Part shown: positions 6,859 through 19,076 of the stretch, piece by piece
How positions within the stretch are numbered: position 1 is the stretch's first letter
How the letters are laid out: every line of letters begins with the position of its first letter
Origin: Deltaproteobacteria bacterium RIFOXYA12_FULL_61_11
GTDB lineage: Bacteria; Bdellovibrionota_F; JAHFAK01; YA12-FULL-61-11
Direction of reading: 5' to 3'
Length of the DNA: 32,249 nt
NCBI GenBank assembly: GCA_001799195.1
Contig: MGSU01000297.1
Span: forward strand, 1-32,249
Notes under the pieces: model-generated
Database searches by the model: none
Told to the model about the DNA's origin: nothing
Seen by the model: only the letters and a program-made list of their open reading frames with translations
Position numbers and translations under genes: made by a program

Positions 6859-7536
6859 TCACGCTCCTTTGGGCTTGTCCTGGTTCATCTTGTTCTTGAG
6901 CTCGGCCAGTTCTGCGTCGATACGGGTTTCCTGTTCCAGTTTCGAGAATTCGTCCTCGAGACCGTTCTTGCCCGAACCGGAGAAGGCCTCGACCTCGCCC
7001 TCGATGCGTTCGAGGTTCTGTTCGAACTGCTCGAACTTGGCGAAGGCCGAGTTCGAACTCACCCGGCTCATGCGCTCTTGGATCTGGCGTTGCGAGAGGG
7101 CGGTCTGCTTGCGCAAGATGATGGCCTTCTGCCGGCTCTTGGCTTCCTTGAGTTTGGTCTCGAGGGTGCCGATATCCTGTTTGAACCGCGCCAAGTTGTC
7201 CACGATCTCGTCGCGCTGGGTCTCCAACCGCCGAGCATCGTCTTCCTTCCTGGTCTTCTGCGAGAGCGCCGCCTTGGCAAGATCATCGCGCTGCTTGCTT
7301 ACCGCCAGCTCGGCCTTCTCTTGCCACGAAAGCTGTTCCTCGCGGAGTCGCCCGAGGTGCCGTTCCATGGTTTTCTGCTCGGCAATGACCTTGGCGGCCT
7401 GGGATTTGACCTCGACCAGGGTGTCTTCCATTTCCTGGATCATCAGGCGCACGATCTTCTCGGGGTCCTCGGCCTTCTCGATCATGTGCAGGATATTGGC
7501 GTTGATGATGTCGTTCAAACGGGAAAAGATGCTCAT
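6859..7536 (-). CDS. pspA: PspA/IM30 family membrane-maintenance protein
   Basis: A 225-residue ESCRT-III-like protein. It begins with the amphipathic membrane-binding helix (MSIFSRLNDIINANI) and is predicted helical throughout, with long charged coiled-coil segments (DPEKIVRLMIQEMEDTL onward) and a family-typical tail. PspA binds stressed inner membrane and, when free, binds PspF and blocks its activity. The ATG at 7536 was chosen because GGAGG stands 5 nt upstream and MSIFSR is the conserved start; a longer frame to 7623 would run through the sigma-54 promoter. It is the first gene of the psp operon and lies divergent from pspF. Confidence 0.97.
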   Translation of the reverse strand: MSIFSRLNDIINANILHMIEKAEDPEKIVRLMIQEMEDTLVEVKSQAAKVIAEQKTMERHLGRLREEQLSWQEKAELAVSKQRDDLAKAALSQKTRKEDDARRLETQRDEIVDNLARFKQDIGTLETKLKEAKSRQKAIILRKQTALSQRQIQERMSRVSSNSAFAKFEQFEQNLERIEGEVEAFSGSGKNGLEDEFSKLEQETRIDAELAELKNKMNQDKPKGA

Positions 7537-7575
7537 GTCGTCCTCCGTGTTGGGTTCAGGTTGGGACGCCGGCAA

Positions 7576-7592
7576 AGCATCTCCCGTGCCAG
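7576..7592 (-). promoter_or_regulatory. Sigma-54 promoter of pspABC
   Basis: On the minus strand the 17-mer CTGGCACGGGAGATGCT matches the sigma-54 consensus YTGGCACGRNNNTTGCW at every defined base but one (A for the first T of TTGC), with the GG and GC doublets at the right distance. The start point would be about 28 nt upstream of the pspA ATG. This fits control by the divergent activator PspF. Confidence 0.85.
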
Positions 7593-7606
7593 GTTGCCAC
7601 TGTTTG

Positions 7607-7619
7607 TAGCGCTTTGATT
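7607..7619 (-). promoter_or_regulatory. IHF-like site upstream of the psp promoter
   Basis: The minus-strand sequence AATCAAAGCGCTA matches the IHF consensus WATCAANNNNTTR except for one base. It lies about 15 bp upstream of the -24 element, where DNA bending would bring PspF to the sigma-54 polymerase, as known for E. coli pspA. The match is short, so this is tentative. Confidence 0.4.
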
Positions 7620-7669
7620 GCACAAAGAGAAGTAAAAAATTGCGGGTGTGGCTCTGGACTGCTTTCGTT

Positions 7670-7688
7670 AAGAATGATAATCATTATT
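7670..7688. promoter_or_regulatory. Fur-box-like palindrome between pspA and pspF
   Basis: The 19 bases here match the classical Fur box GATAATGATAATCATTATC at 16 of 19 positions. The core AATGAT-A-ATCATT (7673-7685) is a perfect 6-1-6 inverted repeat, and 7675-7689 matches the 7-1-7 Fur/Per/Zur box at 13 of 15. It contains the -10-like GATAAT (7676-7681) and ends 24 bp before the pspF start, so a bound Fur-family protein could block pspF expression. Confidence 0.55.
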
Positions 7689-7712
7689 TGAATTCATTAA
7701 AAAGTAGTAAAA

Positions 7713-8756
7713 ATGACTACCCATGTCCCCATTCTCGGCGAATCCGAGGTCCTGCAGAGGATGCTCGAACAGGTCAGCAAACTCGCCAAGCTCAATCGGC
7801 CGGTCCTCATCATCGGGGAGCGGGGCACGGGGAAAGAGTTGGTCGCCGCCAGGTTACATTATCTGTCTCCCCGGTGGGACCAGAGCCTGGTCAAGCTCAA
7901 CTGCGCAGCCCTGCCCGAGGAATTGCTCGACAGCGAGTTGTTCGGTCATGAGGCCGGAGCCTTTACGGGCGCTGTGCGGCGGCGCGCAGGCAGGTTCGAA
8001 CGGGCAGATCACGGCACTCTCTTCCTCGATGAATTGGCGGCGACCTCTCAGCGATTGCAGGAAAAAATCCTGCGCGTGATCGAGTACGGGGAGCTGGAAC
8101 GGGTCGGTGCCGAGCAGACGCTGACGGTAGACGTGCGCGTGATTGCCGCGACCAACGTGGATTTGCCGGTTCTCGCGGCGGCCGGACGTTTCCGCCACGA
8201 CCTCCTCGACCGGCTGGCCTTCGACGTGGTCACCCTGCCGCCGCTCAGGGCCCGCGGCCGCGATGTTGTGCTCCTCGCCGAGCATTTCGCCATGCGCATG
8301 GTCCGAGAACTGGGCGGAGAGTGTTTCGAGGGGTTCAGCGGGGAAGTCCAGGAACAGCTCCTGGCGCACCCATGGCCGGGCAACGTGCGGGAGCTTCGCA
8401 ATACCGTGGAACGGGCGGTCTACCGCTCCCTCGAGCGCGGAGGCCCGATCGACGAGGTGAAGTTCGATCCGTTCGCGTCCCCCTTCAGGCTCGGCCCTGG
8501 CCCTCGAGGGCTTCCCGGCGCTTCGCTCGAAGCGGGGCCACCACCGATGGAGACGGAACCCGAGCCGGAAGTTGGAGGCTTGCTCCAACAGGTCGCGACC
8601 TTCGAACGCGGTCTCTTGGTAAAGGTTCTCGAACGCTGCCGCCATCACCAAGGCCGCACCGCAAAGGCCCTCGGCTTGAGCTACCATCAGCTCCGCGGTT
8701 TGCTGCGCAAGCACGGCCTGATCGGTCCAGCTCGGCAGGCAGAGCGGGGAACATGA
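7713..8756 (+). CDS. pspF: PspF, sigma-54-dependent activator of the psp operon
   Basis: A 347-residue bacterial enhancer-binding protein. It lacks an N-terminal sensor domain and starts directly with the AAA+ domain, as PspF does. Motifs: Walker A GERGTGKE (35-42), the sigma-54-contacting loop GAFTGA (82-87), Walker B LFLDE (103-107), and WPGNVREL near 226. A Pro/Gly-rich linker leads to a C-terminal Fis-type helix-turn-helix (GRTAKALGLSYHQLRGLLR). It hydrolyses ATP to open sigma-54 promoters and is held inactive by PspA. Divergent position from pspA and the sigma-54 promoter between them support the name. No clear Shine-Dalgarno precedes the ATG, and the upstream DNA is AT-rich, so expression may be low. 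Confidence 0.93.
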   Translation: MTTHVPILGESEVLQRMLEQVSKLAKLNRPVLIIGERGTGKELVAARLHYLSPRWDQSLVKLNCAALPEELLDSELFGHEAGAFTGAVRRRAGRFERADHGTLFLDELAATSQRLQEKILRVIEYGELERVGAEQTLTVDVRVIAATNVDLPVLAAAGRFRHDLLDRLAFDVVTLPPLRARGRDVVLLAEHFAMRMVRELGGECFEGFSGEVQEQLLAHPWPGNVRELRNTVERAVYRSLERGGPIDEVKFDPFASPFRLGPGPRGLPGASLEAGPPPMETEPEPEVGGLLQQVATFERGLLVKVLERCRHHQGRTAKALGLSYHQLRGLLRKHGLIGPARQAERGT

Positions 8757-15611: not shown

Positions 15612-16994
15612 ATGAACGAGAACAAACGAGAGGATGGGCAGGACAAAGCAGCTCCCGAGACTACTCCCCCTTCGCGCACTCCTGTACCGGTCCAGGCAGC
15701 GATTCCCCGTACCCGTCGAGGCCAATCCTACCGCGGGGTTGCCAAACCGAGGGAGAGCACCGAACAGGGCCAGACCAGGGACAAGTTTCCACCCCAGGAA
15801 CAGCAACGCCCCCTTGCTCCGGCGCCGAGCGTGGCCAGGAACGATTGGCCCGAGGCGATGCCTCTCCTCCTCGGTCTGCAACAAGAACTCAAGGCCATCC
15901 GTATTGCCCTGGGGGGTCTCAACGGCACCCTGGAACGCCTCGCGAGCGAGCGGGAGCAGCGGCACAACGAGAAGCGCAAGCGGACCCTGCGTTCGGCCAT
16001 GTTCGTCGATTTCGACAACATCTTCATCGCGTTCAATGATATCGCACCGCAACTCGGCGACTACTTCGTCAACCAGATCACCTCGTGGGTGGACTGGTTC
16101 GAGAGCGGGAAGACCAACCAATCCGAGAACCAGGACGAACCTATGGAAACGCGGGACCTGCACATCCGCAAGTGCTATCTCAATCCCCGCTCCTTCCACA
16201 AGTACCGCGATCAGTTCGTCCGCTCCGGGTTCCAGATCGTCGATTGCCCGCCCATCTCCTCGCGGGGTAAGACCAGCACCGACATGCGCATGGTCATCGA
16301 CATCATGAACTCGATGCAGAGCGCCAAGGGTATCGACGAGTACATCATCATGTCCTCGGACGCTGATTTCATGCCGATCCTGCTCAGTCTGCGAGAAGCC
16401 GGACATCTCACCACCGTGGTAGCCATCGGTCCGACCTCCGAGCATTACCGCTCGGCGTGCGACCGGATCATCGATTACGAGGATTTCCGGGAACACGCAC
16501 TGGGCATGAGCGAGGAGAAGGTCGAGGAGCATCGCGTCGAACCCGAACTCGAGGAGCCGGTGGAGAAGAAGGAGGATATTTTCAGCACCGACGACCTCGG
16601 ACCGCGCGATTTACACAACTTCCTCCGCGAGTTGAAGGGCCACCTGCGCTTATTGCCGCGGGGCAGCAGCAATGTCGAACTCTTGACCAAAGAGGAATTC
16701 CGGGTCCTCTTCGCAGCCCTGGCCTGGACCATACGCCAACATGGCAACATCGGGTTGCTCCGGACCTCGGCGAGGGTGAGCGACCTCTGCTCACACAATG
16801 GTTGGGACATCTACCGCAACAAGGTCCAGGCCATCTTGCAGGAGTTCCGGCTCGGACCTGAATTGCTGCGCGATCCCAAGACTCTCTCAACCTCGACCAT
16901 TGCCAAGATGTTCCTGCTGCGGTTGCGCAGCATGCGGAAACAGCAACAGACCAGTACTCCTCCACCCGTTGTGCCGCAACCCCCTCAGGTCTGA
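15612..16994 (+). CDS. NYN-domain (PIN-like) putative ribonuclease with long flanking regions
   Basis: A 460-residue protein. Residues 1-80 are a Pro/Arg-rich disordered region, 85-125 a helical segment, and about 126-290 the NYN domain. The acidic residues of a PIN/NYN metal site are visible: D133 and D135 in MFVDFDN, D224 and D230 in STDMRMVIDIM, and D250/D252 in MSSDADF. In the family they bind metal ions for RNA cleavage. After an acidic linker (about 300-335) comes a helical region (about 345-440: PRDLHNFLRELKGHL onward) that may bind nucleic acid, perhaps OST-HTH-like, but this is uncertain. The C-terminus is Pro/Gln-rich. The ATG at 15612 has a weak ribosome binding site. Neighbours offer no clear target. 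Confidence 0.8.
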   Translation: MNENKREDGQDKAAPETTPPSRTPVPVQAAIPRTRRGQSYRGVAKPRESTEQGQTRDKFPPQEQQRPLAPAPSVARNDWPEAMPLLLGLQQELKAIRIALGGLNGTLERLASEREQRHNEKRKRTLRSAMFVDFDNIFIAFNDIAPQLGDYFVNQITSWVDWFESGKTNQSENQDEPMETRDLHIRKCYLNPRSFHKYRDQFVRSGFQIVDCPPISSRGKTSTDMRMVIDIMNSMQSAKGIDEYIIMSSDADFMPILLSLREAGHLTTVVAIGPTSEHYRSACDRIIDYEDFREHALGMSEEKVEEHRVEPELEEPVEKKEDIFSTDDLGPRDLHNFLRELKGHLRLLPRGSSNVELLTKEEFRVLFAALAWTIRQHGNIGLLRTSARVSDLCSHNGWDIYRNKVQAILQEFRLGPELLRDPKTLSTSTIAKMFLLRLRSMRKQQQTSTPPPVVPQPPQV

Positions 16995-17083: not shown

Positions 17084-17126
17084 TGGCTCAGGTCGAAAAA
17101 GTACCATGAAGATGAAGGAGGTACGT

Positions 17127-17549
17127 ATGAACCTGACCCTTTGGAACCCGTTTTTCGCCCCGGTGACCGGCAGTCCGTTCCGCGGTTTGCTCCAGAGCAT
17201 GTTCGAAGACGATCGCTGGAACAATGAAACCTTGGTTCCGGCAGTGGACGTGCGGGAGACCGACACGAGCTATGAGCTCATCGCCGAGCTTCCCGGTTTC
17301 TCGAAGGACGACCTCAAGCTCGAGGTCAAGGACGGCGTCCTGATGTTGTCCGCGGAGCGGAACGAGAAGAAGGAAGAGAATGATGGCTATCTTCGGATCG
17401 AGCGTCGCAGCGGCATGTTCAGCAGGAGCTGGACCTTGCCCGAGGGCACCAAGGTCGAGGATATCGGCGCCCACTACGAGAATGGTGTGCTGACCCTGAC
17501 CATACCCAAGGCAGAAGCCGCGAAGCCGCGTCAAATCTCCATCCATTGA
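17127..17549 (+). CDS. Hsp20/alpha-crystallin family small heat shock protein
   Basis: A 140-residue chaperone that holds unfolding proteins in a refoldable state in large oligomers. A short N-terminal arm (MNLTLWNPFFAP) leads to the alpha-crystallin domain, starting at VPAVDVRETDTSYELIAELPG and including GVLMLSAERN and the ENGVLTLTIPKAE strand that ends the fold. A C-terminal IxI-like motif (ISI in RQISIH) fits oligomer contacts. The ATG at 17127 was chosen because a perfect AAGGAGGT lies just upstream, which also predicts strong translation. A sigma-70-type promoter precedes it. It is transcribed alone. Confidence 0.95.
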   Translation: MNLTLWNPFFAPVTGSPFRGLLQSMFEDDRWNNETLVPAVDVRETDTSYELIAELPGFSKDDLKLEVKDGVLMLSAERNEKKEENDGYLRIERRSGMFSRSWTLPEGTKVEDIGAHYENGVLTLTIPKAEAAKPRQISIH

Positions 17550-17741
17550 GTTCCAACCCGGGGAGCCCCGCGGGTGCGTCCTGTACCTTGTAGGGGTTCC
17601 CCTTCCCCCTCCTCGCGCACAAACGGGCAACATTTGGGAAGAGAAATATCTAGCTGCAATGAGTCGCAATAAAAACAAGCTCTAATGTCTTTTTTGCTGC
17701 GATCCTCTCTCCGTATTGGTTGGCCCATGGCTTGGTCGGGA

Positions 17742-17771
17742 TTGACAAGCGGTGGGCAAGGCCCGAATAAT
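17742..17771 (+). promoter_or_regulatory. Promoter of the cold-shock/VOC fusion gene
   Basis: A perfect TTGACA (17742-17747) and AATAAT (17766-17771, 5 of 6) are 18 bp apart. A start near 17778 leaves a leader of about 27 nt carrying GGAGG before the ATG at 17805, too short for a CspA-like thermosensing leader. Confidence 0.6.
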
Positions 17772-17804
17772 ACGCGGCTCGTTCGTGACTTCCGGAGGAT
17801 AGTA

Positions 17805-19076
17805 ATGAGCAGTAAGCTCAACGGTACCGTGGTACGCTTCAATGGTCTTATCGGTAATATCAGGGTCGAGGGGGAACCGGACAAAGAACCTCTCTTCTTC
17901 CACCGCAATGAGGTCGAGGGAGGTCAGGTCCAGATCGGCGACAAGGTCAGCTTCTCCCTCAGCAGCAATAAGACGGGACCCTGCGCCCGGACCATCTCGG
18001 TTACCGAGCAGGGCTCCCACGACGACGACCGCTTCAACCGCATCGAACAACCCCGCGCTCCGAAACCCTGGGCTCCGCGAGATCGTGGATTCGGTCGCCG
18101 AGATCCTGGTCCCCGGGATCAAGGCGGTTACAACCGCGGAGATCGTCAGGGTTTCAACCGAGGAGATCGGCAGGGTTATGACCGCGGAGATCGTCAGGGC
18201 GCACGGCCCATACGGCCCTTCCATCGTCCCGACGAGCGACCTCGGATGGATGAGGATGCCCCTGCAGAACGGCATACCGGGACCGTCAAGTTCTATGCTC
18301 TTCGTCCCGGCAGCGCCGACCAATGGTATGGCTTCCTCGTTCCCGAGGGGGGCGGCCAGGATATCTATTTCGATGCCCGTGGGGTCGGGGAAGAAGTCGT
18401 CACGGATGGGGATAGGGTCACCTTCCTGCTCGGCAATAATCGCAAGGGAGGTAATTTCGCGTATGACCTCAAGGTGCTACAGGGTTCTGTCCCCGTACCC
18501 GCGACCGGTCAGCCCCGAGACGACAGACTGCACTCCGGGAACGTGCGCCAGAATGCAAGGAACAGCACGGTGCGCTTTCCTCGCCCTGAGCAAGAAATCC
18601 AGGACGATACTCCTACTTCTGACGTGGATGATCGGGAACTCGAGTATCCACCCCTCCGGGAAGCGTTACCGGCAGAACCCGCGCTCCAAGGTCCTCGCTT
18701 GGTCCTGTCCATCCTCGCGGTGACCGATCTGCCGACCGCGGCTGATTTCTACAGCAAGGCCTTTGGCTGGACCCGGTTGGTCGATGAAGAGACCTATGTC
18801 GAATTCGCTTTGCCGGGTGGGCATCGTCTTGGACTATACAGCCGCGAGGGTTTTGCCGTGAACACCGGCCGTAGGCCGCAACGGCCTATTCGCGGCGCGA
18901 CCACGGCCACGGAACTCTATTTCTATGTGGCTGATCTGGCCGGTACCATAGAACATGTGATCTCTTGTGGGGCCGATCTCCTCGCCGGCGCTGAACCTCG
19001 CGCCTGGGGCGAAGAAGTGGCCTATCTCGCCGATCCCGAGGGCAACGTCCTGGCCCTGGCAAAGCCCAAGGCCTGA
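17805..19076 (+). CDS. Two cold-shock-like domains fused to a VOC (glyoxalase/bleomycin-resistance) domain
   Basis: A 423-residue protein with an unusual order of domains. CSD-like 1 (about 1-68: LNGTVVRFNG, LFFHRNEVEGG, GDKVSFSLSSN) has a degenerate RNP1. A Gly/Arg/Asp linker (about 70-155) contains three repeats of the type GYNRGDRQ. CSD-like 2 (about 157-226) keeps both nucleic-acid motifs: YGFLVPE and DIYFDARGV. After a second acidic linker, residues 298-421 form a VOC domain (LAVTDLPTAADFYSKAFGW, ELYFYVADLAGTIEHVISCGA, AYLADPEGNVLALA). CSDs bind single-stranded RNA or DNA; VOC domains bind metals or small molecules. GGAGG stands 7 nt before the ATG. There is no in-frame stop or sign of frameshift between domains. 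The role is unknown. Confidence 0.85.
   Translation: MSSKLNGTVVRFNGLIGNIRVEGEPDKEPLFFHRNEVEGGQVQIGDKVSFSLSSNKTGPCARTISVTEQGSHDDDRFNRIEQPRAPKPWAPRDRGFGRRDPGPRDQGGYNRGDRQGFNRGDRQGYDRGDRQGARPIRPFHRPDERPRMDEDAPAERHTGTVKFYALRPGSADQWYGFLVPEGGGQDIYFDARGVGEEVVTDGDRVTFLLGNNRKGGNFAYDLKVLQGSVPVPATGQPRDDRLHSGNVRQNARNSTVRFPRPEQEIQDDTPTSDVDDRELEYPPLREALPAEPALQGPRLVLSILAVTDLPTAADFYSKAFGWTRLVDEETYVEFALPGGHRLGLYSREGFAVNTGRRPQRPIRGATTATELYFYVADLAGTIEHVISCGADLLAGAEPRAWGEEVAYLADPEGNVLALAKPKA
18126..18197 (+). repeat. Three tandem 24-bp repeats inside the CSD-VOC gene
   Basis: Units start at 18126, 18150 and 18174 and differ by few bases. Each encodes G-[YF]-[ND]-RGDRQ, so the array is in frame and forms the flexible RGD/RGG-like linker between the two cold-shock domains. 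A partial, more diverged unit precedes it. Copy number may vary between strains. Confidence 0.9.

Follow-up and report, generated by a model that had tools for sequence, protein, structure and literature searches.

The window, that is, the whole stretch of 32,249 nt analysed here, carries a 423-codon gene that, as read from its sequence, encodes in one open frame a fusion of two cold-shock domains (CSD1 and CSD2) and a glyoxalase-fold (VOC) domain, and a simpler fusion of one CSD to a VOC domain is conserved through an unrelated phylum. The reading that we prefer, to which we give a little less than an even chance, is that of a nucleic-acid-binding protein whose VOC domain would act as a metal-free ligand-binding and/or dimerising module.

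Domains of the window protein

The gene is a single frame that ends with a TGA at 19074-19076 (Table 1). Its ATG is preceded by a Shine-Dalgarno-like sequence and by a candidate promoter that shows 11 of 12 consensus matches, in a region holding three such sites against 0.7 expected. An alternative in-frame ATG at 17685 would open a longer frame, and it lies 5' of the candidate promoter and is devoid of a Shine-Dalgarno-like signal. The whole protein scores 34.8 bits against Pfam CSD (cut-off 27, over two stretches) and 38.1 bits against Glyoxalase_6 (cut-off 23.6). In agreement with the original prediction, the open reading frame and Pfam both place two CSD-like domains, a linker and a VOC domain in one protein.

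Table 1. Coordinates of the fusion gene, its domains and signals, and the related fusion family
Feature	Position	Strand	Evidence
CSD-CSD-VOC gene, 423 aa	17805..19076	+	ORF; Pfam CSD + Glyoxalase_6
Candidate sigma-70-like promoter TTGACA-18-AATAAT, 33 nt 5' of ATG	17742..17771	+	consensus scan
Shine-Dalgarno-like GGAGG, 6 nt 5' of ATG 17805	17794..17798	+	direct reading
CSD1, aa 4-70	17814..18014	+	Pfam CSD 22.4 bits alone; 45% identity to stand-alone CSD
Linker 1, aa 71-155, rich in Arg/Asp/Gly/Pro, predicted disordered	18015..18269	+	composition; pLDDT < 50
Tandem repeat, 24-bp unit, 3.1 copies, encodes (Y/F)(N/D)RGDRQG	18126..18199	+	TRF score 113
CSD2, aa 156-226	18270..18482	+	Pfam CSD 20.7 bits alone; 41% identity to stand-alone CSD
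Linker 2, aa 227-296, acidic and rich in Pro, predicted disordered	18483..18692	+	AlphaFold2; composition; codon bias about neutral
VOC (glyoxalase-fold) domain, aa 297-423	18693..19073	+	Pfam, alignment, ligand mapping, AlphaFold2 model, Foldseek
CSD-VOC fusion family of another phylum (L117-L131)	e.g. L117:1501-2130	-	

Taken singly, both CSDs score under the Pfam cut-off of 27 (E 1e-4 for CSD1 and 4e-4 for CSD2), and each is therefore a degenerate member of the family; the identities in Table 1 refer to cold-shock proteins of another phylum that stand alone. CSD1 retains an RNP2-like LFFHR and has lost the aromatics of RNP1 (GLIGNI). CSD2 retains GTVKFY and the YGF of WYGFLVP, and its RNP2 is degenerate, with DIYFD(AR) in place of VFVHF and thus an Asp for the His. 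Rather than the full pair of RNP1 (KGFGFI) and RNP2 (VFVHF), each CSD retains one of these motifs in part, and despite this both may still function as cold-shock domains. The NCBIfam CspE model gives 31.6 bits on CSD2, under its cut-off of 120. AlphaFold2 outlines both CSDs as five-strand OB-like folds at a pLDDT of only about 50-60, and the CSD part modelled by itself reached about 40, too poor for use. Linker 1 holds three RGD-bearing repeats of eight residues between the two CSDs and not a single RGG, so that of the "RGD/RGG-like" repeats originally described the first half stood and "RGG-like" is a loose label.

The VOC domain was modelled confidently, with a pLDDT of about 92-98 and one block at 89, in an AlphaFold2 run whose alignment input consisted of 26 VOC relatives. 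The paired beta-alpha-beta-beta-beta modules of the fold and a Pfam Glyoxalase match are both present; Foldseek matches VOC proteins, among them 3bqx (E 3e-10) and the metal-free drug binders 1kll and 2a4w (mitomycin/bleomycin), 5umq (TnmS1) and 3itw (TioX). The original prediction had proposed looking for metal ligands in a predicted structure, and the glyoxalase I ligands (His5, Glu56, His74 and Glu122 of GloA) turned out to be mostly lost. In an alignment to an E. coli GloA reference sequence, His5, His74 and Glu122 correspond to Leu301, Glu370 and Ala417; the mapping covers these positions (1, 3 and 4), as position 2 is not reliably alignable, and none of the three keeps the GloA residue. 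Glu370 is invariant in the 27 aligned VOC sequences (27/27), and the loss of the ligands is common to the whole window VOC subfamily. With Leu and Ala at positions 1 and 4, glyoxalase-type chemistry, and with it the aldehyde detoxification suggested at the outset, is disfavoured, as is metal-dependent detoxification in general; a metal-dependent glyoxalase was rejected on the missing ligands. The sensing or antibiotic binding suggested alongside may still apply.

Relatives and origin of the fusion

A second protein with the exact CSD-linker-CSD-linker-VOC layout was not found in the genomes, GTDB, plasmids, phages and viral contigs searched. A scan of GTDB with the whole window protein gave no match, and 386 sampled genomes, together with 291 and 40 genomes of two other phyla, gave matches to the CSD or VOC part only. 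When GTDB was scanned with the VOC-family alignment, 28 relatives up to 54% identical were recovered, all of them (28/28) stand-alone proteins, and their loci contained no CSD. These relatives are hosted mostly by Myxococcota, other Deltaproteobacteria and Planctomycetota MAGs. The window's own genome has no second VOC of this type and three further CSD matches: a two-CSD protein on contig C57 accounts for two of them and a one-CSD protein on C76 for the third. The two-CSD protein (G000, C57:4989-5438, locus L001) is a frame of 190 aa opening with a hydrophobic stretch, which may be a signal peptide and as such would be unusual for a cold-shock protein. A phage or plasmid origin was rejected, given that phages and viral contigs contained no relative of the window protein and plasmids a single match to the VOC part. 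Viral contigs scanned for relatives of CSD1 gave none either.

The best match to CSD1 in the genome sample is part of a 226-codon frame whose product also contains a VOC domain. This fusion, of about 200 aa and with one CSD, occurs in 15 of 16 genomes and in all five genera of an unrelated phylum at 55-97% identity, one of the 15 genes being truncated by a contig end. Three of these proteins were scanned with Pfam and gave 56-59 bits for CSD and 43-61 bits for Glyoxalase. The CSD retains RG(F/Y)GF and LFFH, hence both RNP1 and RNP2. The ligand positions of the VOC, assigned by motif in five rows, read Gln, Glu and Arg, which is not a full metal site; in one of these rows (L131) the automatic anchoring was wrong, and its first position, as judged by eye, is His. 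As the ligand positions are Leu or Gln, Glu, and Ala or Arg in the two fusions, a canonical four-ligand metal centre is unlikely in both.

The window protein and this family thus have in common an N-terminal CSD and a C-terminal VOC domain without canonical metal ligands, whereas the family differs in its one canonical CSD, in having no long linkers, in its other VOC subfamily (about 25% identity) and in a ROK-kinase gene as 3' neighbour. Because a related fusion is present in nearly every genome examined of another phylum, the pairing looks functional rather than a sequencing accident. The architecture had been described as unfamiliar, and the exact layout is indeed unreported in the libraries searched, but the simpler fusion is conserved elsewhere; for the same reason, the notion that homologs always occur as separate genes is borne out for the window VOC subfamily and fails for the architecture. 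Profile searches over fewer than 1,000 distinct genomes gave no third CSD-VOC lineage, and no report of the architecture was found in the open-access literature searched.

By sequence, the two fusions have VOC halves from different subfamilies: these halves are about 25% identical to each other, whereas identity between the window VOC and stand-alone proteins reaches 54%, and forcing both together in the full VOC tree costs 43 log-likelihood units (p-AU 0.005). The join therefore probably arose twice, and this rejection of one VOC origin suggests that the pairing is useful and no accident. Two origins are probable rather than proven, since a reduced, quick VOC tree did not reject a single one (p 0.52). 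The CSD tree, built on short halves and with long branches, gave p 0.40 for a common origin, which speaks neither for nor against it.

Genomic context and possible functions

Directly upstream of the window gene on the same strand lie genes for an Hsp20 (17112-17549) and an NYN-domain protein (15612-16994), and Lon, PspA and a sigma-54 activator are encoded at a greater distance. This neighbourhood fits a role in stress or RNA metabolism and is no evidence of one. The NYN protein, whose gene stands just 5' of that of Hsp20 and two genes from the fusion, scores 67 bits in Pfam and has a long Pro/Arg-rich N-terminus. The PspA gene and the divergent sigma-54 activator gene (6859-8756) form a phage-shock-type pair. 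Separately, a 328-aa frame (L156:108-1091, minus strand) joins an apparently NYN-nuclease-like N-terminal region to a C-terminal cold-shock domain. A retron or defence effector was rejected: the retron Se72 CSD effector model (NCBIfam NF038236) scores 32.6 bits, under its cut-off of 82, the other matches are weak and concern general models of CSD and NYN proteins, and among the window genes scanned neither a reverse transcriptase nor any other gene for defence was recognised.

In the other phylum, the stop codon of the CSD-VOC gene overlaps the start of a ROK-family (sugar) kinase gene in one genus (g113), and in the other genera the gene directly 3' is carbohydrate-binding family 9-like, as read from motifs. 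In one genome (L132:5128-8229), an AlkZ-related gene and a gene for a DNA methylase stand in tandem behind the CSD-VOC and ROK genes, possibly as one operon. The context thus differs between the two fusions and provides no shared functional clue.

Cold-shock domains bind single strands, basic flexible linkers containing Arg-Gly commonly add nonspecific RNA contacts, and ligand binding and dimerisation are common among VOC folds that lack metal ligands, such as the MRD and Ble proteins. In the reading that we prefer, CSD1 and CSD2, spaced by the basic disordered RGD-repeat linker, would hold RNA or single-stranded DNA, with aromatic contacts probably better retained in CSD2 than in CSD1. Since RNP1 of CSD1 and RNP2 of CSD2 are degenerate, this binding may be weak. 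The C-terminal VOC domain would bind a ligand and/or dimerise, and so tune or localise the binding of nucleic acid; both dimerisation and small-molecule control are inferred, and the simplest combined view would be a dimer whose binding to nucleic acid is modulated by a small molecule.

An accidental history has to be weighed against this: the window fusion could be incidental, either a recent in-frame join of a CSD gene and an adjoining VOC gene or an artefact of assembly or frameshift, with no joint function. The stand-alone state of all 28 GTDB VOC relatives is in line with this, as are the near-neutral codon bias of linker 2, for which an estimate from base composition gives a probability of about 10% that the frame stays open by chance, and the failure to find a confirming four-part ortholog or a relative of any kind in the one same-class genome examined. 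Linker 2 and the start of the VOC domain, however, contain no in-frame ATG, the few GTG and TTG codons there have no strong Shine-Dalgarno sequence upstream, GC content is uniform across the CSD-VOC junction, and a ribosome binding site and a promoter-like site occur at the CSD end only. Together with the like fusion conserved in another phylum, these indirect observations make an incidental join unlikely.

Two other roles could be assigned to the VOC domain. It might sequester a drug or toxin that damages nucleic acids, as the bleomycin and mitomycin binders do, while the CSDs position it at damaged RNA or DNA; Foldseek and sequence matches to MRD, TnmS1 and TioX, the 29% identity of the other-phylum VOC to a plasmid 'bleomycin binding protein BLMT' and the loss of the metal ligands all accord with this. 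At about 20-30% identity these similarities are nonetheless at the level of the fold, genes for biosynthesis or resistance were not recognised near the fusion in the window, and the other-phylum neighbours are the ROK sugar kinase or the carbohydrate-binding family 9-like gene, so that we regard drug sequestration as distinctly unlikely. Alternatively, the VOC domain could be an enzyme, metal-independent or with a non-canonical site (Glu370, Arg399 and Trp401), acting on a metabolite or modified nucleotide while tethered to RNA by the CSDs. The residues invariant across the window VOC family alignment (F315, E370, Y372, R399, W401, G402 and Y407) would suit such a site, but the canonical ligands are missing and there is no substrate clue, which leaves an enzyme quite improbable.

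More broadly, it is conceivable, if doubtful, that cold-shock domains were joined at least twice to a metal-free VOC domain and so gave rise to a new class of bacterial regulators that bind RNA or single-stranded DNA and respond to a ligand, with a phylum-wide one-CSD form and a two-CSD form in the window lineage. The usual view of cold-shock proteins is that their response to temperature and growth lies in how strongly they are expressed, and a recurrent fusion to a ligand-binding type of fold would suggest direct small-molecule control of some of them. The phylum-wide form of 200 residues is a compact protein suited to testing such control.

Comparison with known systems

The CSD-CSD-VOC protein is a new combination of known parts. 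With the cold-shock proteins (CspA/CspE, PF00313, and the multi-CSD CSDE1/UNR), it shares OB-fold CSDs, the presence of more than one CSD per chain, the LFFH motif of CSD1 and the GTVKFY and YGF motifs of CSD2, but it adds a linker with RGD repeats and, at the C-terminus, a VOC domain, and has partly lost its RNP motifs. The stand-alone VOC subfamily 'LTILAV..DL / RDWGDEAAYFADPDGN' (Glyoxalase_6) has close members that are 40-54% identical over the whole domain and have likewise lost the metal ligands; unlike the window protein, all members found are separate genes without CSDs. Ble, MRD, TnmS1 and TioX, which have a VOC fold without metal chemistry, are among the top structural matches of the window VOC, and with about 20-25% identity and no CSD they resemble it at the level of the fold only.
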